Shown in pieces: positions 2,578-17,918 of a DNA stretch of 64,000 nucleotides (positions are counted from its first letter, which is position 1; the number at the start of each line of letters is the position of its first letter). Below the pieces are notes generated by a model. It worked only from the letters and a program-made list of their open reading frames with translations, had not been told where the DNA came from and did not search any database. The position numbers were made by a program, and so were the translations under genes. The stretch is from an uncultured Sphingomonas sp. (GTDB lineage Bacteria; Pseudomonadota; Alphaproteobacteria; Sphingomonadales; Sphingomonadaceae): contig NZ_CAJXWX010000015.1 in the NCBI RefSeq assembly GCF_913062585.1, positions 1 through 64,000 on the forward strand, written 5' to 3'.

Positions 2578-3260
2578 CTTAGCCGCCCCGATGCGAGCAG
2601 GGCGGAAAGACCTGCTGGAAAGACGATATCCCCGCTCAGTTCGGGGGCGGGTTCGGGCGCAGCGAAGGCGCTGCGGATCGGCAGCACCCCGGCCCAGACC
2701 GGGTGCGCCGCCTCATCGCCGTCGCTGGGCGGCTCGGCCCGTGCCTTCACGCTGGCTTCCTCAATGTCGAGGTACAGGACACTGGTTGCCTTCAGTTCCT
2801 GCGTGGTCATCGGCCGCAATGTCTCCCAGCGACCAGGGAACAAGCCGTCGGTGAACCGCCGCAGCGCGTCGGCGATCGCGTCTGGCTCCTCGACGACCCG
2901 CGCGATGCCGAAGACCATCGCCGAGCGGTAGTTGACCGAATGATTGAAGGCCGACCGCGCCAGCACATAGCCATCCATATGGCTGACGGTCAGGCAGACG
3001 CGCTGTCCTTCGGCCTGACGCAGGAAGCGACTGGCGGCGGAGCCGTGCCAATAGACCCGTTCCCCCTCGCGCCAGTGGATGGTCGGCGTGACATAGGGCT
3101 CGCCATCGATGACATAACCGACATGGCAGATCGGCGCGGCGTCGAGCACCGCATGGACCGTGCCGGCGGCATAGTCCGCGCGGCGATGCCCACGCCGCAC
3201 CCGGCTGCGTTCGGTGATCGGATAGGCTTCCTTGTCGGATGAATGATCGGTCGGTGTCAT
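2574..3260 (-). CDS. Pyridoxamine 5'-phosphate oxidase family protein (NimA-like)
   Basis: A 228-residue split-barrel flavin-binding protein of the PPOX family. The order TVHAVLDAAPICHVGYVIDG, PYVTPTIHWREGERVYWHG and VCLTVSHMDGYVLARS is typical of the NimA-like or FMN-binding group, in which the flavin sits at the dimer interface. I chose ATG 3260 because AAGGGGG lies just upstream; an open frame runs on to 3428 without a good ribosome site. It is divergent from a MocR/PdxR-type regulator, a common pairing in which the regulator senses pyridoxal phosphate, and is followed by an overlapping GNAT gene. True PdxH activity is unlikely because the C-terminal PdxH signature is absent. Confidence 0.82.
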   Translation of the reverse strand: MTPTDHSSDKEAYPITERSRVRRGHRRADYAAGTVHAVLDAAPICHVGYVIDGEPYVTPTIHWREGERVYWHGSAASRFLRQAEGQRVCLTVSHMDGYVLARSAFNHSVNYRSAMVFGIARVVEEPDAIADALRRFTDGLFPGRWETLRPMTTQELKATSVLYLDIEEASVKARAEPPSDGDEAAHPVWAGVLPIRSAFAAPEPAPELSGDIVFPAGLSALLASGRLR

Positions 3261-3356
3261 GTGGCCCCCTTGCCTGTCGCGGGACTGCCATGTCGGGAAA
3301 GCGGATCGCTGCCCAATGCCACTTGCGCAAAGATCGGCAGTCCAGTTGAAGGAGGC

Positions 3357-4064
3357 ATGGCCGCTACATATCCTGCCACCTGGATCCTGATCGACCGCCG
3401 CGCCGGGCATCTGGAACGGCAGATCCATGCTGCCATCCGCGACCGGGTGTTGGCGGGGCAGCTCGTGGGAGGCGAACGCCTGCCCTCCTCGCGCGCGTTG
3501 GCGGCGATGCTGGGGGTGGCGCGATCGACGGTCGTGGCGGGCTATGAGTTGCTGCGTGCGGAGGGCTTCGTGACCGGGCGGGCGGGGTCGGCGATGCGGG
3601 TGGCCGACCTGCCGCCGGCTCTCGACGGTGCACGTGCAGCGCCGCTGCCGCGATTATCACCGCCGGAACCGGAGCCGGAACGGTTCCTGCCGTTCCGGCC
3701 GGGCCTGCCCGATCTCGACAGCTTCCCGCACGAGGGATGGTCCCGCTGCCTGAGCGCCCGTGCGCGCCATCTGCATATCCATGACCTCGGCTACCGCGAT
3801 GAGAACGGTTTGCCGGCGTTGCGGCAGGCGATCGTCGATCATGTCACGCGGGCACGGGCCGTGCTGGCCGATCCCGAACAGGTCGTCATCAAGCCGTCGA
3901 CGGCGGCCATCCTGGCGCTGCTCGCGCGGGTGCTGCTGCCGGCTCCTGGCCAGACCGCTTGGCTGGAGGAACCGGGGTATCGCACTGCCCGCGACATCTT
4001 TGCTGCGGCAGGCGCCGCGATCGTGCCGCGTCCCTGCGATGCGGAGGGCATGACGATCCGGTGA
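3357..4064 (+). pseudogene. MocR/PdxR-family regulator, truncated by IS3-family insertion
   Basis: The first 235 residues of a GntR-type regulator fused to an aminotransferase-like domain; intact members are about 450-500 residues. The winged helix is clear at residues 18-74 (LPSSRALAAMLGVARSTVVA). The aminotransferase part starts at FRPGLPDLDSFP and includes GYRDENGLPALRQAI and KPSTAAILALLARVLL. The PLP-lysine half is missing. Start ATG 3357 has the ribosome site GAAGGAGG. The stop codon TGA at 4062-4064 is the first three bases of the inserted IS. I do not find the rest of the gene after the element, so flanking DNA was probably lost. The neighbouring PPOX gene has therefore probably lost its regulator. 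Confidence 0.88.
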
Positions 4065-4125: not shown

Positions 4126-4392
4126 ATGAAGCGGAAGCAGTTTTCGGAAGAGCAGATCATCGGCATTTTGAAGGAGGCCGAGGCGGGTGCGGTGGTGACG
4201 GAGCTATGCCGCAAGCACGGCATGTCGAGCGCGACCTACTATGCATGGAAGGCGAAGTTCGGCGGCCTGGAGGTATCTGACGCAAAGCGGTTGCGGTCGC
4301 TCGAGGATGAGAATGCCCGGCTCAAGCGGCTGCTCGCGGACACGATGCTGGACAATGCGGGGTTGAAAGACCTGCTGTCAAAAAAGTGGTGA
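4126..4392 (+). CDS. IS3-family transposase OrfA
   Basis: An 88-residue helix-turn-helix protein with the family start KRKQFSEEQIIGILKEAEAG, the recognition helix in CRKHGMSSATYYAWKAKFGG, and a C-terminal leucine-zipper-like stretch (LEDENARLKRLLADTMLDN). OrfA binds the IS ends. Near its 3' end an A6-G run at 4380-4386 is the usual slippery heptamer for -1 frameshifting into orfB, producing the OrfAB transposase. OrfA itself appears intact. Confidence 0.93.
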   Translation: MKRKQFSEEQIIGILKEAEAGAVVTELCRKHGMSSATYYAWKAKFGGLEVSDAKRLRSLEDENARLKRLLADTMLDNAGLKDLLSKKW

Positions 4393-5334
4393 CGCCCGCC
4401 GCGAAGCGACAAGCGGTCGCGCATCTCCAGGCGACGTTGGGGATGAGCGAGCGGCGGGCATGTGCGGTTGTCGGAGCGGATCGCACGAGCATGCGGTATC
4501 GCTCCTGCCGGGCAGATGATGGCGACCTGCGGTCGCGTTTGCGTGAGCTGGCGCAGCAGCGCCGGCGGTTCGGCTATCGGCGTCTGCACATCCTGCTGCG
4601 CCGGGACGGGATCACGATCAACCGCAAGAAGACCCAGCGGCTCTACCGCGAGGATCGTGCCGGAACAGGCATCGATCCGGGGGATCGATGACCCGGCATG
4701 ACTGACGGTCAGGCGCCGGAAGAGACGGAGGCGCGCGGTTGGCGCACGGGCGCCCGCGCCGGTGCTGGCGCTTCCCAACCAGCGCTGGAGCCTGGACTTT
4801 GTGCACGACCAGTTCGTCACCGGCCGGCGGTTCCGCGTGCTCAACATCGTCGACGACGTGACACGCGAATGCCTCCGAGCGGTGGTAGACACCTCGATCT
4901 CGGGCCGGCGGGTCGTGCGCGAGTTGAACGATCTGATCGCCGAGCGGGGCAAGCCGAAGATGATCGTCAGCGACAACGGGACCGGACTGACGTCGAACGC
5001 GGTGCTCGCCTGGTCAGGCGATGCAGGCGTCGAATGGCATTACATCGCGCCGGGCAAGCCCACACAGAATGGGTTCGTCGAGAGCTTCAACGGTCGCATC
5101 CGCGACGAGCTGCTCAACGAGACGCTGTTCTTCACCATCGGTCAGGCCCGCTCGATCCTCGCCCGCTGCGTCGACGACTACAACACCGAGCGACCGCACT
5201 CGTCGCTCGGCTACGCCACTCCGGCAGCCTTCGCTGCCGGGCTCGAACAGCAACGGGCGGGGTTAACCCCGCCCGTTGCTTCACCTGCGCCCATGCGCGA
5301 CAACACCGGTCGGTCTCTGGTTGCCGCTGGATGA
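4386..5334 (+). pseudogene. IS3-family transposase OrfB, split by a palindromic insertion
   Basis: The DDE integrase-core subunit. The first part (4386 to about 4655) reads through ERRACAVVGADRTSMRYRS and RRRFGYRRLHILLRRDG up to LYRE. The frame then meets about 43-46 foreign bases, shifts and stops. The second part resumes at 4702 with [18 protein letters not shown] and runs to 5334. It carries the catalytic Asp in [11 protein letters not shown], the second Asp in [15 protein letters not shown], and the Glu in [17 protein letters not shown]. All catalytic residues survive, but the two parts are in different frames, so no full-length OrfAB can be made. Confidence 0.88.
4656..4700. repeat. Small palindromic insert inside IS3 orfB
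   Basis: Between the codons for LYRE and LTVRRR lies a nested palindrome: TGCCGG (4658-4663) pairs with CCGGCA (4693-4698), and ATCGATCC (4671-4678) pairs with GGATCGAT (4682-4689) around a GGG loop. A normal orfB has room for about two codons here, so the net gain is about 43 bases, which matches the observed frame shift. It looks like a tiny hairpin element; its origin is unknown. Confidence 0.7.
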
Positions 5335-5814: not shown

Positions 5815-6795
5815 TCAGTATTCCGCCGAGTCCGGGGCCGCGGCTCCCGGTGCCGCGGCCAGCCGGGCATGCAGGCGCAGGGCGTAGTCAGCCGCCAAGG
5901 GGTGCTCGGCGCCCAGTGTCGGGCGGCTCAGCAGCATGATCTTGCGGGTGATGACCGGCGCGACGAGGCGGATCAGGCGGATGCCGTCCTGATGGTGCAC
6001 CATATGGGTGTAGAGGCGCGGCAAGATGCCGACGGCGAGCCCGCTGCGCACCAACCCGTAGAGCGATTCGACGTGGTCGACGCGATAGCGCGGCGAGGCG
6101 GCGAGGCCGTAGGGCAGCAGCGCGGCGGCGGCGAGTTCGCCGATGCTGCCGCCGGCGAAATGCACGATCTGCGACGCCGCCAGCGCACGCCAGGGCTGGG
6201 CGTCGCGGCGGGCGAGCGGATGCGCGTCGCTGGCGACGAGCAACAGGTCGTCCTCCACCAGCAGGTGCCGGTCGAACGGCGCGTCGGCGGCCGATGCCGC
6301 GCTGACGATCATGTCGAGCCGCGCCTCGCGCAGCCCCTGCACCAGCTCGTCGCTGCGCCCGTCCGACAGGTGCACGTCCGGCGCCGCGTCGTCCGCGTCG
6401 AGCGCCGCGACCGCCTGCGCCACCATCGCCATGGCCGACGGCATCACGCCGATGCGGATCGCCGGCCGCTGGTGCGTCAGCGCCGCGCGCATGTCGACGA
6501 AGGCATGGCCAGCAGTGGTGAGCAGCCGCTCGACATGCGGCAGCATGGCGCGGCCCGCCTCGCTCAGCGCGACCGCATGGGTGGTGCGGTCGAACAGCAC
6601 GATCTCCAGCCGCCCCTCCATCTGACGGATCGTCGCGCTGAGCGCGGGTTGCGTCACCGCCAGGTCGGCCGCTGCACGACTGAAGCTGCCGAACCGCGCC
6701 ACCGCGGCGAAACTGCGCAACTGCCGCAACGACAGCGCCTGGAGGCGCGTCGCCAGTTGATCCGCCCGCATCGCCATCATCTCCTCGGCTGCCAC
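5815..6795 (-). CDS. LysR-family regulator of the purine cluster
   Basis: A 326-residue LysR-type regulator. The winged helix-turn-helix is at residues 22-80, with SFSRAAADLAVTQPALSATI (37-56) as the recognition region, followed by the two-lobed effector domain starting at IRIGVMPSAMA. It is divergent from the TonB receptor gene at the head of the purine nucleoside cluster, with about 270 bases between, the standard position for a LysR protein controlling the divergent operon. The inducer is probably a purine or nucleoside, by context only. The start may be ATG 6795 or an ATG a few codons in. Confidence 0.88.
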   Translation of the reverse strand: MAAEEMMAMRADQLATRLQALSLRQLRSFAAVARFGSFSRAAADLAVTQPALSATIRQMEGRLEIVLFDRTTHAVALSEAGRAMLPHVERLLTTAGHAFVDMRAALTHQRPAIRIGVMPSAMAMVAQAVAALDADDAAPDVHLSDGRSDELVQGLREARLDMIVSAASAADAPFDRHLLVEDDLLLVASDAHPLARRDAQPWRALAASQIVHFAGGSIGELAAAALLPYGLAASPRYRVDHVESLYGLVRSGLAVGILPRLYTHMVHHQDGIRLIRLVAPVITRKIMLLSRPTLGAEHPLAADYALRLHARLAAAPGAAAPDSAEY

Positions 6796-7069
6796 CCGTC
6801 GGTCATAAGGAATGATGATAAGCAGATAGGATGAAAATCATAGCGATTGCTGACCGACCCATTATCCTGCCCCCGTCGTCCGATGAATCCCCCTGAGAGG
6901 ATCACGGAGGACGGGGGGATGACACCCGGCCGCGACAAGCGGCGGACCAGCCAGGGCAATGCAGGTGGACATGAGTGGCCGTCGAGCGGGAGAACCCGCC
7001 TGCGGCCGGTAACACGCGCGAGACGGTGCCATGCGGTGCCGGCTGGCGAGTCATGTGGGGGCGCCGCCG
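6796..7069. promoter_or_regulatory. Divergent promoter region between LysR gene and TonB receptor gene
   Basis: About 270 bases shared by two divergent genes. The LysR-proximal part (about 6805-6850) is AT-rich, with GATGATAAGCAGATAGGATG and AAAATCAT, and is the likeliest place for the LysR binding site. No perfect T-N11-A dyad stands out, so the exact site is not assigned. Confidence 0.45.
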
Positions 7070-10000
7070 ATGTTGAACCGTTCCGTTTTCCTGACCTCGA
7101 CCCGCGGCATGAGCCGCCTGACCGTATCGACCAGCGCGTTGCTCGCCGCCCTTGGCGTGGCGCTGCCCGCCGCGGCCCAGGACGCCCGGCAGCAGGATAC
7201 TGCGCAGCAGGTCGCGTCAGCCTCTGACGCCCCCGATGCCGCACCGCCCGCGAACGATATCGTCGTCACCGGATCGCGCATCCGCACCCCGAATGCGACC
7301 AGCGTCAGCCCGATCAACACCGTGTCCGGCGCCGAGATCAGCGCGCGTGGCGCAACGCGGGTGGAGGACCTGATCAACACCCTTCCCCAGGCCTATGCGG
7401 ATCAGGGGGGCGGCAATCGCGGCGGCACGGTCGGCGCCAGCGGCACCGCGACGATAAACCTGCGCAACCTGGGCAACCAGCGCACGCTGGTGCTGATCGA
7501 CGGTCGCCGATTGATGCAGGGCGACCCCGCCCGCGGCGCGGCGCAGGCCGCCGACATCAACAACGTGCCGGCGGCGCTGATCCAACGCGTCGACATCGTC
7601 ACCGGCGGCGCCTCCGCCGTCTATGGCTCGGACGCCCTGGCCGGCGTCGTCAACTTCATTCTGAAGCGCGACTTCGACGGCCTCCAGCTCGACGCCACCG
7701 CCGGCCTGTTCACCCACACCAACGACAATCCGATCAGCAGCGTCGCGCGCGCCGCCGGCGTCGCTCCTTATAGCGGCGACAACAAGGACGGCGGCCAGCA
7801 GAGCGTATCGCTGACGTTCGGCAAGAACTTTGCCGGCGGCCGCGGCAACGTCACCGCCTTTGTCGGCTATCGCTCGATCGACGGCGTCGGCACCGCCGCG
7901 CGCGACTTTTCGAGCTGCAACCTCAATGCGACCGCCGCCGGCTATGCCTGTTCGCTGTCGAGCGCGACCTCGCCCGCGCAATTCCAGTTGACCAACCCCG
8001 TGACCGGCGCAGTGCGTGGCAGCTTCACGCTGGATTCGGCAACCGGCAACAGCCTGCGCGCCTATCGCAGTTCGGACGGCTTCAACAACGGCAACACCTA
8101 CGACCTGCAGGCGCCGGACAAGCGCATCAATGCCGACCTGTTCGCCAACTACAAATTCTCCGACGCCGCCGAAGCCTATGGTGAATTCATGTTCATGCGC
8201 GACGAAGCGGACATCCGCCTGTCGCCGACCGCGACCTTTTCGGTGCCGTTCAGCGTCAATTGCTCCAATCCCTTTCTGTCGGCGTCGGAGCGCAACCAGA
8301 TCTGCACCTCGGTCGGCCTGACCAATGCGCAAAGCGCGACGGTGATCGTCTCGCTGCGCAATGCCGCAGGCGGGTCGCGCCACGATTACACCAACCATGA
8401 AAGCTATCGCGGCGTGCTCGGCCTGCGCGGCGACGTGTCGTCAAACTGGCATTATGACATTTACGGTCAGTATGGCCGGACCAATTACGATTCGCGCCTG
8501 ATCAACGATTATTCGCTGGCCCGCTTCCGCAACGCGCTTCGCGCCGTCACCAACGGCAATGGGCAGATCGTGTGCGAATCGGCGGCGACCAATCCGTCGT
8601 GCGTACCGATCAACATCTTCGCGATCGGCGGCATCACGCCGGACGCGCTGAACTACGTCCAGAACACCGTGACCCGCACCGGCTATACCGAGGAAGCGAT
8701 CGCCAGCGCGTCGTTGACCGGCAATCTGGGCGTCACGAGCCCGTTCGCCAGCCACGGTGTCGGCGTCGCGATCGGTGCGGAATATCGCCGCGAGGAAATC
8801 CGCTTCACGCCCGACCAATTCTATTCGAGCCGCGACGTCGCCGGCAATTCGGGTGGCGAGTTTCCGATCGCCGGATCGTTCGACGTGAAGGAAGTCTATG
8901 GCGAGGTCCGCGTGCCGCTGGTCGAGGACAAGCCGTTCGTCCGCAGCCTGAACGTCGAGGGCGGCGTGCGCTATTCCAGCTATAGCACGGCCGGAAACAC
9001 CTGGGCATACAAGGCCGGCGCCGACTGGTCGCCGGTCAGCGACATCCGCTTCCGCGGCAGTTACCAGCGCGCGGTGCGGGCGCCCAATCTGGTCGAGCTG
9101 TTCGGTCCGCAGCGGCAGGTGACGGCCAGCATCTCGGACCCTTGCGAAGGCACCACCCCGCGCGCGACCGCCGCGCAATGCGCCCAGAGCGGCGTCACCG
9201 CGACGCAATATGGCCTGATCGCGCCCGCCGCGGGGCAGCAGTCGGGCGCGCTGATCGGCGGCAATCCGCGGCTGGAACCGGAAACCAGCAACACCACGTC
9301 GTTCGGCGTGCAGCTTACCCCGCGCTGGCTGCGCGGCATCACGATGACCGCCGACTATTTCGACATCGACGTCAAGAAACTCATCACCACGGTGCCCGCG
9401 GGCATCACGCTGAACCAGTGCATCACGCAGGGCGTGTTCTGCGACCTGATCCGCCGCAACCCGGCGACGGGATCGCTGGTGACGGGCGGCTTCGTGACCA
9501 CCACCAGCATCAATTCGGGCTATCTGAAGACCAGCGGCATCGACCTGTCGGTCGCCGCCGACCAGAATCTCGCCGACATCTTCGGCGGCAATCCGGGCCG
9601 CCTGACGATCAATGCGGCTGGCACGTCGACGCGCAAATACGAGACGCAGATCCTGCCGGGATCGCCACCCTATCGCTGCGACGGCTATTTCGGCGTGACC
9701 TGCGGCGTGCCGATCCCCAAGTGGCGGCACCGTGTGCTCGTCACCTATACGCTGCCTGACGGCGTGGCACTCTCGGCCACCTGGCGGCACCTCAGCGAAG
9801 TGCGCAATGACCGGTCGAGCAGCGCGCCCTATCTGAGCGGCACCTATTACGCCTATGACAAATACCTGCCGACCATGGATTATCTCGACCTGGGCGTGTC
9901 GATCGCCGTCGCGCGCCGCTACACGCTGCGGCTGGGAGTGAACAACGTGTTCGACAAGGATCCGCCGCTGACCGCCAGCACCGGCACCGGCCAGGTGAGC

Positions 10001-10075
10001 AACGGTCCCTTCTATGCGGGCATTTACGATGCGCTCGGCCGCTATGTGTTCGCCGGCGTGAGCGCGCGGTTCTGA
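7070..10075 (+). CDS. TonB-dependent outer-membrane receptor, predicted nucleoside/purine uptake
   Basis: A 1,001-residue TonB-dependent receptor. A signal peptide ends near LGVALPAAAQ, the plug starts with NDIVVTGSRIRTPNATSVSP and continues with INLRNLGNQRTLVLIDGRR and VDIVTGGASAVYGSDALAG, and the beta-barrel ends in the terminal Phe of YVFAGVSARF. Several closely spaced Cys pairs in the barrel suggest disulphide-locked surface loops. The stop TGA overlaps the ATG of the nucleoside hydrolase (TGATG). The operon context points to nucleosides or a larger nucleic-acid breakdown product as cargo, which is inference. The chosen ATG (7070) precedes a second possible start at 7109 that leaves a shorter signal peptide. 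Confidence 0.9.
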   Translation: MLNRSVFLTSTRGMSRLTVSTSALLAALGVALPAAAQDARQQDTAQQVASASDAPDAAPPANDIVVTGSRIRTPNATSVSPINTVSGAEISARGATRVEDLINTLPQAYADQGGGNRGGTVGASGTATINLRNLGNQRTLVLIDGRRLMQGDPARGAAQAADINNVPAALIQRVDIVTGGASAVYGSDALAGVVNFILKRDFDGLQLDATAGLFTHTNDNPISSVARAAGVAPYSGDNKDGGQQSVSLTFGKNFAGGRGNVTAFVGYRSIDGVGTAARDFSSCNLNATAAGYACSLSSATSPAQFQLTNPVTGAVRGSFTLDSATGNSLRAYRSSDGFNNGNTYDLQAPDKRINADLFANYKFSDAAEAYGEFMFMRDEADIRLSPTATFSVPFSVNCSNPFLSASERNQICTSVGLTNAQSATVIVSLRNAAGGSRHDYTNHESYRGVLGLRGDVSSNWHYDIYGQYGRTNYDSRLINDYSLARFRNALRAVTNGNGQIVCESAATNPSCVPINIFAIGGITPDALNYVQNTVTRTGYTEEAIASASLTGNLGVTSPFASHGVGVAIGAEYRREEIRFTPDQFYSSRDVAGNSGGEFPIAGSFDVKEVYGEVRVPLVEDKPFVRSLNVEGGVRYSSYSTAGNTWAYKAGADWSPVSDIRFRGSYQRAVRAPNLVELFGPQRQVTASISDPCEGTTPRATAAQCAQSGVTATQYGLIAPAAGQQSGALIGGNPRLEPETSNTTSFGVQLTPRWLRGITMTADYFDIDVKKLITTVPAGITLNQCITQGVFCDLIRRNPATGSLVTGGFVTTTSINSGYLKTSGIDLSVAADQNLADIFGGNPGRLTINAAGTSTRKYETQILPGSPPYRCDGYFGVTCGVPIPKWRHRVLVTYTLPDGVALSATWRHLSEVRNDRSSSAPYLSGTYYAYDKYLPTMDYLDLGVSIAVARRYTLRLGVNNVFDKDPPLTASTGTGQVSNGPFYAGIYDALGRYVFAGVSARF

Positions 10076-11166
10076 TGCGCGGCGTCAGGCGTCGGCTGGT
10101 GGGCATGGGGGCGGCGCTGGTCGCCGCCCTGTCGGCGCCTGCCACCACCGCGCAGCAGCCGGCATCCGCGGGACCGGTCCGCATCTTCTTCGACAACGAC
10201 TTTCTCGGTCCCGGCCAGAGCAATATCCAGGCGATGATCCCGTTGTTGCGCGACGAGCGGGTCGTGCTGGACGGCGTGGGCGTCGTCACCGGCGATGCCT
10301 GGCTGACCGAGGAGGTGCAGCATCTGTTGCGCTTCCTCGAAATCGCGCGGCGCTCCGACGTCAAGGTTCATGCCGGGGCCGAGATGCCGTTGCTGCGCAC
10401 GCCTGCGGAAATGGCCAATTGGGAGGCGGCGTTCGGCAAGGTGCCGTTCAAGGGTGCCTGGAACGCGCCGCGACCGGGCCGCAGCTATCACCCCGATCAG
10501 CCCAGGCTGATACCGCCGATGCCGGAAGGCACGCCCGCGCTGAAGCCGGCGGCAGACGATGCCGTCACCGCGCTGATCCGCACCGTCCGCGCGCATCCGG
10601 GGGAGGTGACGATCGTCGCGGCGGGCCCCCTGACCAACATCGCGCTTGCACTGCGCATCGCCCCCGATCTGGCGGATCTCGCCAAGGGCATCGTGATCGA
10701 GGCGGGCAAGGTCGATACCGGCTTCGGCCGCGCGACGGGCAACACCGATTATGCCACCGATTTCAACTTCCTGTTCGATCCGGAGGCCGCGCACATCGTC
10801 CTGACCGCACCGTGGAAACGGATCACCGCGGTCGGCAACGTATCGTCCAGCGTCAAGATGACGCCCGAACTCGCCGACCGTATCGCCGCCTCGGGCAAGC
10901 CGGTAGGCGACTATGTGAAGCGCTACGCCCGCCTGGGCCAGCCGCTGTGGGACGAGATCACCGTCGCCGTCGCCATCGACCCGAGCATCGTCACCGAAGA
11001 CGTCGTCGCGCATCTCGACGTCGAGACGCAGCGCAGCGCCAGCTATGGCCAGCCGTTGATCTGGAAGCCGGACATGGCCCCCGCCGGGACGCGCGAGGTG
11101 CATCTGGTGCGGGCGATCGACGCCCAACGCTTTACCCGCCGCTTCGTCGAACAGGCCGGGCGATGA
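10075..11166 (+). CDS. Divergent inosine-uridine nucleoside hydrolase family protein, exported
   Basis: A 363-residue IUNH-fold protein with a signal peptide (residues 1-27, ALSAPATTAQ), so it probably acts in the periplasm, splitting nucleosides into base and ribose. Family features present: GPLTN (184-188) and DFNFLFDPEAA (229-239). Two hallmarks differ. The N-terminal calcium-binding motif, normally D-x-D-P-G-x-D-D, here reads FDNDFLGPGQSN (39-50), keeping two Asp but losing the DD pair. The C-terminal His-Asp motif reads LWDE (291-294), with Trp in place of His. It may use another substrate or chemistry. It sits between the receptor and a purine permease with overlapping starts. Confidence 0.85.
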   Translation: MRGVRRRLVGMGAALVAALSAPATTAQQPASAGPVRIFFDNDFLGPGQSNIQAMIPLLRDERVVLDGVGVVTGDAWLTEEVQHLLRFLEIARRSDVKVHAGAEMPLLRTPAEMANWEAAFGKVPFKGAWNAPRPGRSYHPDQPRLIPPMPEGTPALKPAADDAVTALIRTVRAHPGEVTIVAAGPLTNIALALRIAPDLADLAKGIVIEAGKVDTGFGRATGNTDYATDFNFLFDPEAAHIVLTAPWKRITAVGNVSSSVKMTPELADRIAASGKPVGDYVKRYARLGQPLWDEITVAVAIDPSIVTEDVVAHLDVETQRSASYGQPLIWKPDMAPAGTREVHLVRAIDAQRFTRRFVEQAGR

Positions 11167-12482
11167 GCGTTGCCCGCCTGCTGGAGCATCGCTTCGACCT
11201 TGCCGCCCGAGGCACCACGCCCGCGCGCGAAGCGATGGCAGGGCTGACCAGCTTCCTCGCCGCGGCCTATCTGATCGTCGTCATCCCGTCGCTGTTGTCG
11301 AGCGGCGGCATGGATCGGGGCGCCGCCACCACCGCCGCGATCCTGCTGCTCGCGGGCGGCAGCGCGGCGATGGGGCTCTATGCCAACCTGCCCTTCCTGG
11401 TCGGTCCCGGCATCGGCGGATCGGCGATCCTCGGCGTGACGCTGGCGCAGGTGGAGGGCGTGCCCTGGCCGGTCGGGCTGGGCATCGCATTATGCTCGGG
11501 TCTGGCGTTCCTTGCCCTGACGCTTACCGGCGCGCGCGAACTGGTGGTTCGGATGATCCCCCCGCAGATCAAGCTGGGGCTGGGGGCGTCGATCGGCCTG
11601 TTCATCGCGTTGCTGGGATGCCGCGACGCCGGCATGGTGGCGGTCAACGCCCGGTCGAATGCGCTGGCGCTGGGCGATTTCGCCGCCCCCGGCCCGATCG
11701 TCGCGTTGATCGGGCTGGCCGTTGCGGTCGCCTTGCAGGCGCGGCGCGTGCCGGGGGCGATCCTTGCCGGCATCGCCGCCGCCGCGCTGGCGGGCATTCC
11801 CTATGGGCTGACCACGCTGCACGGCGCTGTCTCGCTGCCGCACGGCATCGCGCCGGTCGCCTTCCGGCTCGATCCGGTCGGGGCGCTGACGCTCGCCGCG
11901 CTGCCCTATATGTTCGCCTTCTTTGCGGGCGAATTCTTCTCGACGCTGGGCACGACGCTGGCGATCGGCGCCAAGGCCGGGCTGACCGATGACGAGGGCA
12001 ACCTGCCCGGAATCGAGCGGCCGTTCCTGATCGATTCGATCGCGGCGACCGTCGGCCCGCTGATCGGCATTCCCGCCGGCACCGCGCTGGTCGAATCCGC
12101 CGCCGGGGTCGAGGCGGGCGGGCGGACCGGGCTGACGCCACTGGTCGCCGCGCTCTGCTTCCTCATGACCCTGGCGCTGCTGCCGGTCGCGATGGCGATC
12201 CCCCGTGCCGCCACCGCGCCGGCGCTGATCCTCATCGGCATCTCGATGTTCGGCACGCTGGCCCGCGCGCACCAGGGCGATGCGCTCGACCAGTTGCCCG
12301 CGATGGCGATGGTGCTGCTGACGCTGATCTCCAACAGCTTCGGCACCGGTATCGCCGGTGGGCTGCTCGCGCATGTTCTGGTCATGCTGCTGGCCGGGCG
12401 GGTTCGCGAGCTGCCGCTCGGCCTGATCGTCCTCAGCATCCCGCTGGGCTATTATTTCTACACTGCCGCCACCGGACATTGA
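11163..12482 (+). CDS. NCS2-family purine permease, AzgA type
   Basis: A 439-residue inner-membrane protein with about 12-14 hydrophobic segments, similar to AzgA/PbuG-type adenine, guanine and hypoxanthine proton symporters. Family segments are EAMAGLTSFLAAAYLIVV near the start, NLPFLVGPGIGGSAI, KLGLGASIGLFIALLG, LPYMFAFFAGEFFSTLGT, and AATVGPLIGIPAGTALVESAAG, which is the NCS2 signature with the conserved Glu. Its ATG overlaps the hydrolase stop (ATGA). In the operon it would import the free base released in the periplasm. Confidence 0.9.
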   Translation: MSVARLLEHRFDLAARGTTPAREAMAGLTSFLAAAYLIVVIPSLLSSGGMDRGAATTAAILLLAGGSAAMGLYANLPFLVGPGIGGSAILGVTLAQVEGVPWPVGLGIALCSGLAFLALTLTGARELVVRMIPPQIKLGLGASIGLFIALLGCRDAGMVAVNARSNALALGDFAAPGPIVALIGLAVAVALQARRVPGAILAGIAAAALAGIPYGLTTLHGAVSLPHGIAPVAFRLDPVGALTLAALPYMFAFFAGEFFSTLGTTLAIGAKAGLTDDEGNLPGIERPFLIDSIAATVGPLIGIPAGTALVESAAGVEAGGRTGLTPLVAALCFLMTLALLPVAMAIPRAATAPALILIGISMFGTLARAHQGDALDQLPAMAMVLLTLISNSFGTGIAGGLLAHVLVMLLAGRVRELPLGLIVLSIPLGYYFYTAATGH

Positions 12483-12488
12483 CCCCTC

Positions 12489-13595
12489 ATGCCTCAGCCT
12501 GCCCAGCTCGGGAACGTTCCCGAGAGCCCCATCGGCCGTCCCGTCTCGCCCGAGCAGCGCGCCTTCTTCCGTGCCATCCCCAAGGTGGAACTGCACTGCC
12601 ATCTGCTGGGCGCAGTCCGCCACGACACCTTCGCCGAGCTCGCCGCACGCCACCGCGCCCCGGTGACGCCCGACGAGATCGCCGGCTTCTACACCCGCGG
12701 CGAGAAGCCGGTCGGTGTGCTCCATGTCCTGCGCACGCTGGAACGGCATCTGCTGCTGGAGCCCGAGGCGTTCGAGCGCATCGCCTATGAATATCTGGCG
12801 GATGCGGCGGCGGAGAATGTCCGGCACGCGGAGTTCTTCTGGAACCCGACCGCCAGCATGCGCGACCAGGGCCTGGCCTATGCCGAGATGCAGGCGGCCA
12901 TCTTCGCCGGCATGACGCGGGCCGAGGCGGATCATGGCATCTCGTCGCTGCTGATCCCCAGCATCGACCGCGAGGCGGGCGCGGAGGCCGCGCTCGACAT
13001 GGTGACCGCGATGGTCGCGCATCGCGACCCGCGCGTTGCGGGGATCGGCATCGATTATCGCGAAACCGACAACCCGCCCGAACGGTTCATCGAAGCCTAT
13101 ACGCTCGCCCGGGAGTCCGGCCTGCGCGCCACCGCCCATGCCGGTGAGTTCGGGGAGCCATGGACCAATGTCGAAACGGCGGTCGATCGGCTGGGGGTCG
13201 ACCGGATCGACCATGGCTATACGATCGTCGACAATCCGGCGCTGGCGCAACGCTACGCCGAGGCGGGCACGGTGTTCACCATCGTCCCGACCAATAGCTG
13301 GTATCTGCGCACGCTGCCGCGCGAGCGCTGGGCGCTGGATCACCCGATCCGCCGCATGGCCGAGCTGGGGCTGCGGCTGCACCCCAATACCGACGACCCG
13401 ACGTTGCACAACGTCACACCGGCCGGGGCGTGGGAGCTGATGTATTCGCACCTCGGCTTCGATCTGGCGGCGTTGCGCGCCATGATGCTCAACGGCATCG
13501 CGGGAAGCTGGGCCACGCCGGCACAAAGGGACCGGTGGCAGGCGGACTTCGCGCACGACTTCGACGCTGCGGCGGCCGCGACGGACCTCGCGTGA
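12489..13595 (+). CDS. Adenosine deaminase family protein (adenosine or adenine deaminase)
   Basis: A 368-residue amidohydrolase of the ADA family, which uses zinc to deaminate adenosine, adenine or related aminopurines. The metal ligands and catalytic residues are complete: HCH (36-38), HAGE (217-220), DHG (241-243) and TDDP (301-304). The first motif reads HCHLLGAVR rather than the usual HLDGSL or HLEGTL, which hints at altered specificity. It follows the permease by six bases and overlaps the PrpD-family gene (GTGA). In this operon the likely substrate is adenine or adenosine brought in by the upstream transporters; which one cannot be told. Confidence 0.88.
   Translation: MPQPAQLGNVPESPIGRPVSPEQRAFFRAIPKVELHCHLLGAVRHDTFAELAARHRAPVTPDEIAGFYTRGEKPVGVLHVLRTLERHLLLEPEAFERIAYEYLADAAAENVRHAEFFWNPTASMRDQGLAYAEMQAAIFAGMTRAEADHGISSLLIPSIDREAGAEAALDMVTAMVAHRDPRVAGIGIDYRETDNPPERFIEAYTLARESGLRATAHAGEFGEPWTNVETAVDRLGVDRIDHGYTIVDNPALAQRYAEAGTVFTIVPTNSWYLRTLPRERWALDHPIRRMAELGLRLHPNTDDPTLHNVTPAGAWELMYSHLGFDLAALRAMMLNGIAGSWATPAQRDRWQADFAHDFDAAAAATDLA
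12507..12524. promoter_or_regulatory. Perfect 18-bp palindrome at the start of the deaminase gene
   Basis: CTCGGGAACGTTCCCGAG is a perfect inverted repeat with a central CG, the architecture of LacI/GalR-family operators. It lies within the first 12 codons of the deaminase gene, 25 bases after the permease stop. No LacI gene is in the purine cluster; the only one in the window is at 57.5 kb. It may be an internal operator or a chance result of coding sequence. Confidence 0.4.
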
Positions 13596-14929
13596 CCGGA
13601 GGTGCGACCGCCGCGGTCGTCCGCCTGAGCACCGCCGCGGCGGCGAACGTGCCGCCCGACGTCCAAGCGATGGCGAAGCTCTGCATGCTCGACTGGTTCG
13701 GGCTTGCCATCGCCGGCCAGCAAGAGCCGGTTACCCGGCTGTTGCTGGCGGAGGTACACGAAGAAGGGGCGACGCCGGTCGCGACGATCCTGGGTGCGGG
13801 GCACCGGTTCAGCGGGCGCCAGGCGGCACTGGTACATGGCGTCGCCGGCCATGCGCTCGACTATGACGACGTGAACCTCGCGATGCACGTCCATCCCACG
13901 ACCGTGCTGCTGCCACCGCTGCTGGCGCTGGCCGAGATGCGGGCGCTGGACGGCGCAGCGGTGCTGCGGGGATTCGTGGCGGGGTATGAGGCCGCGGGGA
14001 TGATCGGTGCGGCGATCAGTGGGCCGCATTACGCCCGCGGCTTCCACGCGACCGGCACGATCGGGGCGCTGGGCGCGGCAATGGGGTGCGCTCATGCGCT
14101 TGGCCTCGACGATGCGGGACAGGCACGCGCGCTAGGGCTGGCCGCATCGATGGCCGCGGGCCTGAAGGCGCAGTTCGGCACGATGGCGAAGCCGATGCAT
14201 GCCGGCCGGGCGGCGGAGGCCGGTCTGCTCGCCGCGCTACGCGCCGAGCGCGGCATCACCGGCTGCGCGACCATGCTGGAGGCGCGGCAGGGTTTCGCCG
14301 ACACGCTCGGCGATGGCTGGCCGGCGACGGCGCCCGTCTGGACCGGCTATCACCTGCGCGACAATCGCTTCAAATTCCATGCCGCCTGCTTCGGGGTGCA
14401 TGGTACGCTGGAGGCGATCGGCGCGTTGCGGCATGAGCATGGCTTTGCCGCGGACGACGTTCGGGCGGTGCGACTGACGGTGCATCCGTCACTCAATGCG
14501 ATGTGCAACCTGTCCGAACCGCAGGACGGCCATGCCGCCAAGTTCAGCCTGCGCTTCAACGCCGCGCTGGCGCTGGCCGGCCGCCCTACCGGCGATATCC
14601 GCACCCATGCGGACACAATCGTCGCGGATGCGGCGATCCGTCGCCTGCACGACCGTGTCACCGTCATACTGGCATCCGGCGACTGGCCGGAGGACATGAC
14701 CGCGGTCGAGATCGACCTCGGCGACGGCCGGACGCTCCGTGCCATGCACGACATGGCCGCCCAGCGCCTGACGCCCGGCGTCGCGGCGCCTCGGCTCGCC
14801 GCCAAGTTCGACGCGCTCGTCGCGCCGCGGATCGGCGCCGCCGCCGCCGGACGCCTGCGCGCGGCAATCGACCGCTTCGAAGCGCAGTCGGTGACGGCCT
14901 TGCTGGCGATGGTGTCGCCGCCCCGGTGA
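13592..14929 (+). CDS. MmgE/PrpD family protein, role unknown, last gene of the purine cluster
   Basis: A 445-residue member of the MmgE/PrpD family, which includes 2-methylcitrate dehydratase, cis-aconitate decarboxylase and iminodisuccinate epimerase. Conserved family segments are HALDYDD (87-93), FHATGTIGALGAAMGCAHAL (151-170), KPMHAGRAAEAG (200-211) and FKFHAACFGVH (260-270). It starts with GTG overlapping the deaminase stop, so it is translationally coupled to purine genes. No methylcitrate genes are nearby. A role in degrading a purine-derived or ribose-derived acid is possible but untested. Catalytic chemistry cannot be predicted from the family alone. Confidence 0.85.
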   Translation: MTGGATAAVVRLSTAAAANVPPDVQAMAKLCMLDWFGLAIAGQQEPVTRLLLAEVHEEGATPVATILGAGHRFSGRQAALVHGVAGHALDYDDVNLAMHVHPTTVLLPPLLALAEMRALDGAAVLRGFVAGYEAAGMIGAAISGPHYARGFHATGTIGALGAAMGCAHALGLDDAGQARALGLAASMAAGLKAQFGTMAKPMHAGRAAEAGLLAALRAERGITGCATMLEARQGFADTLGDGWPATAPVWTGYHLRDNRFKFHAACFGVHGTLEAIGALRHEHGFAADDVRAVRLTVHPSLNAMCNLSEPQDGHAAKFSLRFNAALALAGRPTGDIRTHADTIVADAAIRRLHDRVTVILASGDWPEDMTAVEIDLGDGRTLRAMHDMAAQRLTPGVAAPRLAAKFDALVAPRIGAAAAGRLRAAIDRFEAQSVTALLAMVSPPR

Positions 14930-15219: not shown

Positions 15220-15975
15220 ATAGCGCTGTTCTGGTTGTCGGATGAAGCGTGGGCGGCGATCGAGCCGCATTTACCCAGGAACCAGCCCGGTGCCCGGCGG
15301 GTTGACGACCGGTGGGTAATCTCGGGCATGGTGCACGTGCTGAAGGTTGGCTGCCGCTGGTGCGATTGCCCGGTCGATTACGGGCCATCCACGACGATCT
15401 GCAACCGGTTCAACCGCTGGTCACGCCGTGGCTTCTGGCTCAAGCTGCTCGACGCGCTGGTGGATGCTGGCGTGGTTGCAAAGAGCACAGCGATCGACAG
15501 CCCCTACATCAAGGCACAACGCGCGGCATTTGGCGGAAAAGGGCGCGCCATATCCAGGCGATCGGTCGCTCGCGCGGCGGATGGACGACCAAGATTCACG
15601 CGCTACCGATGTTATCGGCCGCCCCTATGTCCTGATGCTGACGGCCGGCAACATCAGCGACGTGAAAGCGGCACCTGTGCTTCTCGAACGGGCCGGCCGC
15701 ATGTGTTACCTCCTTTCTGACAAAGGCTACGATGCCGACCGGCTGCGCCGCTCGCTCCGTGACGCTGGAGCCGTTCCCGTCATTGCGGGGCGACGAAACC
15801 GCAAACGCACAATCCGCTACGACAAGGACAGGTACCGCGCCCGCCACCTTATCGAGAACGCGTTCTGCCGTCTTAAGGACCTCCGCCGTGTCGCCACCCG
15901 CTATGACAAACTCGCCGCCAACTTCCTGTCCGGCGTCGCCGTCGCAACCGCGCTCGCCTTCTGGCTCTGCTGGAG
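15220..15975 (+). pseudogene. IS5-family transposase, start codon lost and frameshifted
   Basis: The reading begins ALFWLSDEAWAAIEPHLPRN after a GGAGGAG ribosome site, but the expected ATG is ATA (15220-15222). The N-terminal frame holds to about 15545 (RWVISGMVHVLKVGCRWC and RFNRWSRRGFWLKLLDALVD). A second frame carries RHIQAIGRSRGGWTTKIHAL to about 15605. A third carries the rest, including MLTAGNISDVKAAPVLLERA, YLLSDKGYDADRLRRSL and LIENAFCRLKDLRRVATRYD. Two frameshifts plus the start loss make it dead. The third frame runs on past the normal end into IS481-like sequence. Confidence 0.88.
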
Positions 15976-16141
15976 TCTCAGCCTTAGCACGACGATTTTC
16001 AGCATGGGCCGAAACAATGCAGCCAACAGTGCGCAGTGCAAAGCGATCACCCGAATAACGCCGCTCGGATGCCGGAAGCACCGCACCAGCGGGGGCCACG
16101 ACGCCTCATGCGCGTCGGCGACGTCACGGCGCGCAAGGCGG

Positions 16142-16340
16142 GTTTCACGGTTCGGTTATCAGAGCCATGACCAGCTCCGAACGCACCTCGCCGACTTCAT
16201 GGCTGCCTACAACTTCGCTCGCCAGCTCAAAACTCTCATCGGCCTCACACCCTACGAATACATCACCAAGATCTCGACGTCAGAGCCAGACCGGTTCATC
16301 GTCTATCCGATCCACCAGATGCAGGGAACGACCCCCTACG
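16142..16340 (+). pseudogene. C-terminal fragment of an IS481-family transposase
   Basis: About 60 residues (YQSHDQLRTHLADFMAAYNF, then LTPYEYITKI and SEPDRFIVYPIHQM) match the C-terminus of the common alphaproteobacterial IS481-family transposase. The catalytic domain is missing. The fragment sits in the same frame as the preceding IS5 remnant, giving an artificial fused open frame ending at 16375. Its far end overlaps the 3' end of the GGDEF-EAL gene on the other strand. Confidence 0.82.
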
Positions 16341-16358
16341 CAAGCCACGCCTATCTTA

Positions 16359-17918
16359 TCAACCCAATGCTCTAAGTTTCTGCTCGCCGCCATCAGTTTG
16401 CGACAATAATTTCATCGCTCTCATCTCATCGACAGGACGACTGAACAGATAGCCCTGCAGCGTCGTGCATCCATTCTTGCGAAGTTGAGCGAACTGTCGA
16501 TCGTCTTCGACCCCTTCTGCCGTCGTATCCATCTTCAGCGCGGTGGCGAGGTCGACGATCGCTTTGACGATGGCAGCGGCGCTGGCATCGTTGGCCACGT
16601 TGGTGACGAACGAGCGATCGATCTTGATCTTGTCGAATGGGAAGGACCGCAAATAGCTAAGCGAGGAATATCCCGTTCCGAAGTCGTCCAGCGCTATTCG
16701 CACCCCGAGCGCCTTGAGCATGTGGAGGATTTGCAGGACGTTGGACTCGCCATCCAAAAAGACCGATTCCGTGATCTCGATTTCCAACCGCTCCGGAGCC
16801 AGGCCGCTTTTGGAGAGGGCTTGGAGCACGATCGCGCTGAAGCCTTGCGCGCGGAACTGAAGCGGCGAGACATTGACCGCGATGCGGATATGCGTCGGCC
16901 ATGCCGCCGCGATCCGGCAAGCTTCATGCATCACCCATTCGCCAATCTGGAGGATCAAGCCGCATTCTTCGGCGATAGGGATGAAATCGGCCGGCGAAAT
17001 ATGGCCCTGCTGAGGGTGCGGCCACCGCAGCAGCGCTTCGAACCCCTTGATCGCGCCATTGTCGCCCGCGACGATCGGCTGGAAATACAGGCGGAGATCG
17101 CCGGACCGGATCGCGACGCGCAAATCCGTCTCGATCTGACGACGTCGTCGCGCGGCCTCGTCCAACGATTGCTCGAAGAAGCGGAAACCGCCACGCCCAT
17201 CGGACTTGGCCCGGTACAGCGCCAGGTCCGCATTCTTCAGCAGGGTCATGCCGTCGCGACCGTCGGTCGGGAACATGGCGATACCGACACTTGCGCCGAC
17301 GACGGTCGTGTGACCGCCCACGTCCCACGGCTCGGCCAGCGCCTTCACAATTGCCTGTGCCAGCCGCCGGGGGCGTTCGGAATGGGCCTCTACGCCAATG
17401 ATGATCGCGAACTCGTCTCCGCCCAGTCGTGCGACCATCGCGCCGTCCGCCAACCGCAACAGCAACTGGCCGACATCGCGCAGAAGCGCATCGCCGACCG
17501 GGTGGCCCAGCGTGTCGTTGACACCTTTGAAGCCATCCAGGTCCAGGCACAGGACCGCGACCTCCTCGCCCAGCCGCTGCGCGCGCGCCACCGCCTGGTC
17601 GAGCGTCTGTTGAAAGAAGGCCCGGTTCGGCAGGTCGGTCAGGCCGTCATGGAATGCCAGATGCGAGATGCGCTGCTCGCGCTCCTTGATGCCCAGCGAC
17701 ATGCGATTGAATGATGACGCCAGCCGCCCGACCTCGTCCTGGCTGACCACCTCGACCTCATGCCGCTCCCCATTTTCGAGCAGCCGGGCCGCCGCATCCA
17801 GGGCCGCGATCGGCTTCGCGATGCCGCCCGCCAACCGCCGGGTGCCCAGGACGATGAGGACGAGCCAGACGACCCCGGCGATCACCAACCCGATCTGGAT
17901 CGAACGATAGGACTCCAT
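16359..17918 (-). CDS. HAMP-GGDEF-EAL cyclic-di-GMP protein, 5'-truncated
   Basis: A 519-residue protein with one membrane helix (residues 7-26), a HAMP linker (27-80), a GGDEF diguanylate cyclase domain (RLGGDEF, 164-170) and an EAL phosphodiesterase domain (EAL 294-296; DDFGTGYSS 411-419). Both catalytic motifs look intact. The 5' end is not natural. Codons just upstream of the first ATG (17919-17988) remain open and read FTAPRQPDGSAQ, then VALLLSYPIARA, the end of a periplasmic sensor domain, before a TGA. So the sensor domain and first helix are lost. The last residues also overlap IS481-derived sequence. Expression and membrane topology are doubtful. Confidence 0.85.
   Translation of the reverse strand: MESYRSIQIGLVIAGVVWLVLIVLGTRRLAGGIAKPIAALDAAARLLENGERHEVEVVSQDEVGRLASSFNRMSLGIKEREQRISHLAFHDGLTDLPNRAFFQQTLDQAVARAQRLGEEVAVLCLDLDGFKGVNDTLGHPVGDALLRDVGQLLLRLADGAMVARLGGDEFAIIIGVEAHSERPRRLAQAIVKALAEPWDVGGHTTVVGASVGIAMFPTDGRDGMTLLKNADLALYRAKSDGRGGFRFFEQSLDEAARRRRQIETDLRVAIRSGDLRLYFQPIVAGDNGAIKGFEALLRWPHPQQGHISPADFIPIAEECGLILQIGEWVMHEACRIAAAWPTHIRIAVNVSPLQFRAQGFSAIVLQALSKSGLAPERLEIEITESVFLDGESNVLQILHMLKALGVRIALDDFGTGYSSLSYLRSFPFDKIKIDRSFVTNVANDASAAAIVKAIVDLATALKMDTTAEGVEDDRQFAQLRKNGCTTLQGYLFSRPVDEMRAMKLLSQTDGGEQKLRALG

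Follow-up and report, generated by a model that had tools for sequence, protein, structure and literature searches.

An open reading frame in the contig of an uncultured Sphingomonas sp. (+ strand, positions 10075-11166 of the window, i.e., of the whole 64,000-nucleotide stretch analyzed) begins with ATG and encodes a protein of 363 residues that is a true nucleoside hydrolase (NH) homologue of the PF01156 superfamily (E 1.2e-53; 183.2 bits, against a curated cut-off of 34.2). Judged from the alignments, its deviation from the family signature is no accident of a single gene; the protein is a member of an old, widespread branch of PF01156 that lacks the aspartate (DD) pair of the NH fingerprint and carries a Trp-Asp-Glu motif (the DD-less "WDE" type). 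We consider it fairly probable that the window hydrolase is exported to the periplasm, hydrolyses purine nucleosides, has a remodelled metal site, and performs the second step of a purine-scavenging operon. A first-pass annotation of the locus had described an NH without the DD pair and without the catalytic His, and this description was borne out, with the residues it quoted and their numbers exact.

That annotation also expected the fold to be kept, and structure prediction agreed. The AlphaFold2 model of the window hydrolase had a mean pLDDT of 90.7 and, in a PDB fold search run with the first model, its best solved match was 1q8f_A (Z 36.5, 2.1 A over 284 residues). At the N-terminus of the model, mean pLDDT was 55, 58, and 63 in the first three blocks of ten residues, and residues 7-17 formed a helix; the worst-modelled stretch was residues 218-226 (pLDDT <50), which takes in N223, the first Asn of the ribose motif GN-x5-DFN. 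The N-terminus reads as a putative Sec signal peptide (Table 1). Comparison with six relatives gave dN values of 0.245-0.340 and dS values of 0.70-0.97; since dN is well below dS, the gene appears to be under purifying selection.

The canonical DxDxxxDD fingerprint is absent from the window hydrolase. In its place, residues 39-50 read FDNDFLGPGQSN (F39-D40-N41-D42-F43-L44-G45-P46-G47-Q48-S49-N50), and profile alignment to the solved hydrolases 6ba0 and 4kpo placed a three-residue insertion after the second Asp. By this alignment, the equivalences to IU-NH are D42 = D10, S49 = D14, N50 = D15, W292 = His241, and D293 = D242. Helix 1 of the model begins at S49 (DSSP), as would be expected under the register in which S49 takes the place of D14. 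The motifs GPLTN (G184-N188), DFNFLFDPEAA (D229-A239), and LWDE (L291-E294) are present. The calcium ligands of RihA are given as Asp10, Asp15, Asp241, and a Thr carbonyl; a water is bonded there to Asn166 and to Asp10, the latter being described as the well documented general base (PMC2898832). Both calcium and the 2'-OH are reported to be bound by the NH fingerprint (PMC10526354). Since only D15 of the DD pair ligates calcium in RihA, three of the four protein ligands appear by alignment to be kept (D10 as D42, the last calcium Asp as D293, and the Thr carbonyl position as T187), the fourth being Asn. Read from sequence, then, loss of the DD pair is one changed ligand (D15 to N50) plus one changed non-ligand acid (D14 to S49), and it is at this level that the changed metal site put forward by the first-pass annotation stands. 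The positions predicted to hold and activate water (D42, T187, N231, and D293) are likewise retained, and the protein is not a degenerate copy.

The His that precedes the last calcium Asp in group I hydrolases is also absent, and Trp (W292) is found there, as in group II. Trp is reported to replace His before the last Asp in purine-specific group II hydrolases (PMC10526354; PMC8910321), and in the T. vivax enzyme a Trp260Ala exchange is reported to have lowered the rate by three orders of magnitude (PMC8910321). A missing catalytic His is therefore ordinary for purine enzymes. The earlier suggestion of a changed base is supported, as Trp at the leaving-group position and an operon with an AzgA-type permease and an ADA-family deaminase both point to purines. 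W116 and W129 are candidates, from sequence only, for the second Trp of group II, which lies in the beta3-alpha3 loop.

Like the group II IAG-NHs of T. vivax and T. brucei, the window hydrolase has Trp immediately ahead of the last calcium Asp, and the Asp10, Thr carbonyl, Asn168, and last Asp positions are present; unlike them, it has no DxDxxxDD and has Glu after the last Asp. Its D74, at the Asn39 position, presumably resembles Asp40 of IAG-NH. By Z score, the modelled fold is nearer to group I (1q8f, Z 36.5) than to T. vivax group II (1hp0, Z 32.8), the group II fold being marked by two extra helices in the crossover. A group I-like fold together with Trp at the His position is shared with 3fz0, which we take to be T. 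brucei IG-NH (3fz0_C, Z 35.0, 22% identity over the aligned part); unlike that enzyme, the window hydrolase lacks the fingerprint. T. brucei IG-NH itself is described as having a group I-like fold and Trp instead of the catalytic His (PMC8910321). With RihA, RihB, RihC, and the C. fasciculata IU-NH, the window hydrolase shares the fold (1q8f_A as above; 2mas_A, Z 36.1), GPLTN, FN..DPEAA, and the last Asp, but it differs from them in having no D14, D15, or His241 and in its apparent signal peptide and TonB-receptor operon. An altered N-terminal aspartate fingerprint on an NH fold is also seen in the HopQ1/XopQ effectors, whose HopQ1-like motif is given as DXXXDXDD (PMC11685791). This motif is absent from the window hydrolase, and its profile match to XopQ structures was weak (best E 7.4e-7, vs 3.7e-55 for 6ba0); a HopQ1-like origin was rejected on these grounds. 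A defence role was also rejected, as no PADLOC model matched at E <=0.01.

The branch was delimited in an alignment of 103 rows, comprising the window hydrolase, 79 loci from named genome records, 20 from whole genomes, and 3 from plasmids (3 of 254 matching plasmid records). The genome-record loci were the best 80, selected with two patterns drawn from the conserved GPLTN and DPEA regions, so that remote relatives and those of the DD type are under-represented. The 103 rows are biased towards near relatives of the window hydrolase. Two partial loci (L031 and L032), one locus with a broken frame (L101, still counted among the 59 DD-less loci of the neighbourhood count below), and the weak matches of three genomes (L005, L006, L007, and L009) were left out. 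In this biased sample, DD was absent from 88 of 103 rows, the window included, and retained in 15. Going by record titles, the DD-less rows came from Pseudomonadota, Acidobacteriota, Verrucomicrobiota, and Bacteroidota (one MAG row). D/E42, W76, T187, N231, W292, and D293 were each present in 88/88 of them, W76 being found in all row types (15/15 DD, 49/49 GPxx, and 39/39 loop-shortened). E294 occurred in 87/88 DD-less rows vs 1/15 DD rows, Trp before the last Asp in 88/88 and 14/15, respectively, and GNx5[DE]FN in 11/88 (window included) vs 14/15. The exceptions to the pairing of traits were DD row L112, which has WDE, and DD-less row L085, which has WDD.

Two kinds of DD-less row could be distinguished. 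Forty-nine of the 88 read D-x-D-x-x-G-P-x-x-(S/T)-x (GPxx type), with position 50 occupied by N in 28, D in 19, A in 1, and G in 1. The other 39 were loop-shortened, with gaps at both the D14 and D15 positions in 32 and E294 in 38; in a model of one of these (L084, mean pLDDT 92.1), strand 1 and helix 1 were both retained and a turn of four residues joined them. Closest to the window hydrolase, FDNDF(L/I)GPGQSN was found in 6/6 of the nearest genome relatives among the matches listed, and also in Novosphingobium KACC 22771 (L012). A tree built by a quick method, without the loop and without position 294, required two changes for DD and four for E294. Holding the 88 DD-less rows together gave a log-likelihood 22.73 above that of the free search (p-AU 0.865), and the tree is thus compatible with DD having been lost once, long ago. 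For this reason, the association of DD with E294 amounts effectively to one or two events and is no proof by itself. On the starred branches there was one independent DD/E294 pair, in which the traits were opposite, as expected if DD was lost where Glu was gained, and both states stayed fixed afterwards in the branch. Considering this one pair and the exceptions L112 and L085, we rejected the idea that the coupled loss of DD and gain of E294 statistically proves compensation.

The hydrolase gene lies in an apparent operon (Table 1), in which its start overlaps the receptor stop (TGATG) and its stop overlaps the permease start (ATGA). The order LysR regulator, TonB receptor, hydrolase, NCS2 permease, and ADA deaminase is common to the six closest relatives among the best 80 loci (Caulobacter, two Novosphingobium, two Nitrospirillum, and one uncultured bacterium). 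Three PDB sequences matched the permease at E <=0.01, all of them adenine/guanine permeases AZG1 and AZG2 (best E 2.4e-33). The deaminase matched 4gxw best, followed by 3rys and 3ou8, which we take to be adenine deaminases, 3ou8 presumably being linked to Pa0148 of P. aeruginosa. Pa0148 deaminates adenine, according to the title of a reference cited in PMC6281700. By their best PDB matches, the window permease and deaminase thus fall in the same families as AZG1/AZG2 and the ADA deaminases, and their substrates are predicted on that basis. Against the NCBIfam adenosine deaminase model, the window deaminase scored just under the cut-off of 216.55. It contains HxH, HAGE, HG, and TDD, which we take to be the expected metal motifs, and its sequence has no evident signal peptide; it would therefore act on imported base.

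Table 1. Features of the hydrolase gene and its operon (window coordinates).
Feature	Position	Strand	Evidence
LysR-family regulator, divergent	5815..6795	-	PF00126, PF03466; same place in 6/6 closest relatives listed
TonB-dependent outer-membrane receptor	7031..10075	+	PF00593, PF07715; 6/6 closest relatives listed
Putative Sec signal peptide (basic start, hydrophobic core, Ala-rich end)	10075..10155	+	read by eye
NH homologue, DD-less "WDE" type, 363 aa	10075..11166	+	PF01156, AlphaFold2 model, fold match 1q8f_A
Altered fingerprint D-N-D-F-L-G-P-G-Q-S-N, residues 40-50	10192..10224	+	profile alignment, DSSP, alignments
W76, two residues past the Asn39 position (here D74)	10300..10302	+	W in 103/103 aligned rows
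GPLTN, residues 184-188; T187 at the Thr carbonyl ligand position (Thr124 of RihA)	10624..10638	+	T in 88/88 DD-less rows
GN-x5-DFN, N223-N231; Asn160, Glu166 (here Asp), and Asn168 positions	10741..10767	+	alignment
W292-D293-E294; Trp at the His241 position, last calcium Asp, Glu	10948..10956	+	alignments
NCS2 permease, AzgA type	11163..12482	+	PF00860; PDB matches AZG1, AZG2
ADA-family deaminase	12489..13595	+	PF00962; TIGR01430 213.7 bits; 4gxw E 9.3e-146; motifs
MmgE/PrpD-family protein, GTG start (chosen) overlapping deaminase stop	13592..14929	+	profile match; homologue downstream in 3/6 closest relatives listed

Identity to the window hydrolase was 64-73% in the Caulobacter, Nitrospirillum, and two Novosphingobium records, and among 396 sampled genomes of the order, no match (E <=1e-30) other than the window's own exceeded 43% identity. 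The distribution is patchy, as if the gene had been horizontally acquired. In L012, the hydrolase, permease, and deaminase stand behind two ORFs that look, by eye, M20 peptidase-like and receptor-like, and the window receptor had no match in this locus at 1e-8. Downstream of this Novosphingobium operon, RutA-, RutD-, and RutB-like pyrimidine genes were seen by eye (L012 11434-14426, - strand). In the window itself, an IS3-type transposase (by eye) flanks the operon on the left (4386-5334) and a DDE transposase (PF01609) on the right (15235-16375). A GntR/MocR-like regulator frame at 3243-4064 ends early by the left insertion sequence and is probably truncated (by eye), and a gene of the purine nucleoside permease family NUP (PF06516) lies at 511-1674, near the left edge of the window.

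The surroundings of other loci were compared using the window's own ADA, NCS2, receptor, and LysR proteins as queries, which favour near relatives, over flanks of varying length. Among the best 80 loci, an ADA or NCS2 homologue was found in the flanks of 20 of 65 DD-less loci, the six closest included; set against 0/15 DD loci, the count for the other DD-less loci was 14/59. Outside the six closest, receptor homologues were found at 2/59 and a LysR homologue at 1/59 of these DD-less loci. Neighbour ORFs were also selected on a rough criterion of length and GC3, with the six closest loci omitted. In all 71 such ORFs of 19 loop-shortened loci, A_deaminase was the top Pfam family (9/71), and there were 3 NCS2, 2 NUP, 4 amidohydrolase, and 4 S9 peptidase matches. 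For the GPxx loci, 89 of 132 neighbour ORFs were scanned, leaving aside the longest ones and some second neighbours; PF01156 was the top family with 7 matches. Of 7 NH neighbours whose fingerprints were read, 2 were DD-less and 5 canonical DTDPG(V/T)DD. Loci with two or three adjoining PF01156 genes included DD-less with canonical copies (L050, L060, L062, L068, and L098) and DD-less with DD-less copies (L045 and L060), and such neighbours could possibly be partner subunits or reflect a division of labour. The queuosine salvage protein family (PF10343) matched 2 of the 89 ORFs.

The Sphingomonas assembly contains two PF01156 matches, both DD-less, and a canonical (DD) match was not found in it. 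The second protein is 39% identical to the window hydrolase and of the loop-shortened type. Its gene is neighboured by NUP, TonB receptor, LysR, two amidohydrolase, XdhC, molybdopterin-dehydrogenase/xanthine-dehydrogenase-type, and NCS2 permease genes, with ADA matches on both sides of this purine cluster. Two PNP-family and two NUP matches were also present in the assembly.

Taken as a pathway, the operon would begin with the TonB-dependent receptor, which may bring a purine nucleoside into the periplasm, where the window hydrolase would split it into ribose and base; as their families suggest, the AzgA-type permease would import the base and the cytoplasmic ADA-family enzyme would deaminate an amino- or N6-substituted purine. 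Within the hydrolase, D42 (Asp10) would be the general base acting on a water held by N231. The metal, probably calcium, would be coordinated by the T187 carbonyl, D42, and D293, with N50 standing in for D15 and E294 possibly helping. W292 would stack on the purine and aid its leaving with no need of a catalytic His, as is the case for group II enzymes. Since D14 and D15 are replaced here and both positions are gaps in most loop-shortened rows, the protein may bind metal weakly or not at all. Several observations count against a purine nucleoside hydrolase: the altered-fingerprint relatives HopQ1 and XopQ are reported to show no detected hydrolysis of common nucleosides (PMC3608555 and PMC8910321, respectively), GN-x5-(D/E)FN is rare in the branch, the fold is nearer to group I by Z score, receptor and LysR homologues are rare beyond the six closest relatives, and Rut-like pyrimidine genes follow the L012 operon. 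The two PNP-family matches would also offer another possible route for nucleosides.

The DD-less "WDE" branch could be a mechanistically distinct NH class, in which catalysis outlasted a single ancient loss of the Asp pair (calcium ligand and 2'-OH contact) because the acid moved to E294, with another metal or none, and a changed choice of sugar or base (2'-deoxy or N6-modified); we advance this only tentatively. The loop-shortened sub-branch, with D/E42, D293, and mostly E294 kept, would then be its extreme form. It is also conceivable, though we think it unlikely, that the protein hydrolyses an unusual nucleoside and not plain purine ribonucleosides, e.g., N6-substituted (cytokinin-type) ribosides or 2'-deoxyribonucleosides, loss of the 2'-OH contact D14 reflecting the sugar. 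Both D14 and D15 are replaced in a fingerprint credited with binding calcium and the 2'-OH (PMC10526354). The ADA group cog1816 is reported to include a cytokinin deaminase that accepts neither adenine nor adenosine (PMC13296781), the permease belongs to the AZG type, and the names of some hosts (Caulobacter sp. Root655, Nitrospirillum amazonense) suggest an association with plants. However, the setting of the paralogue is an ordinary purine cluster of the xanthine-dehydrogenase kind, and no residue of the window hydrolase is tied to N6 groups or deoxyribose.

A binding-only or regulatory pseudoenzyme, e.g., a periplasmic nucleoside-binding partner of the receptor, had been raised by the first-pass annotation. 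Such a role would suit the altered metal fingerprint, has a precedent in the inactive NH-fold proteins described in PMC8910321, and agrees with the finding that five acidobacterial DD-less genes (the five loci with canonical neighbours named above) adjoin a canonical DTDPG(V/T)DD hydrolase. In the Sphingomonas assembly, however, there is no canonical PF01156 match for the window protein to assist, and the general base, water-holding Asn, and last Asp positions are kept throughout the DD-less rows, nearly a third of whose loci among the best 80 have nucleobase permeases or deaminases nearby; a pure binding role is thus possible but distinctly unlikely, and the suggestion was not upheld. As for a decaying gene or a sequencing error in an ordinary hydrolase, the motif does depart from the family hallmark and insertion-sequence pieces do flank the operon, but the frame is open, it overlaps tightly with its neighbours, dN is below dS, and the altered fingerprint recurs in the closest relatives listed and in L012. 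Decay was rejected on this conservation and on dN/dS, and we regard it as extremely improbable. A secreted purine nucleoside hydrolase is the most economical reading and the one that we favour.

DxDxxxDD is treated as the NH hallmark, and all NHs are taken to bind calcium and ribose, in PMC10526354 and PMC3608555, and a "Nucleoside hydrolase" appears among the proteins of an Asaia bogorensis catalogue (PMC12502724). In the open-licence PMC literature searched, we found no description of the DD-less WDE-type branch or of this operon. The finding goes beyond routine annotation, as the branch is old, widespread, without the hallmark fingerprint, and undescribed in that literature. A branch recorded in four phyla, one of them through a single MAG, that has given up half of the fingerprint, keeps most of the remaining active site, and lies partly near purine genes would show that the hallmark is dispensable, and would caution against annotation by DxDxxxDD. 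The natural series from DD, through S/T-N/D, to the shortened loop is material for probing the part that the metal plays in the reaction.
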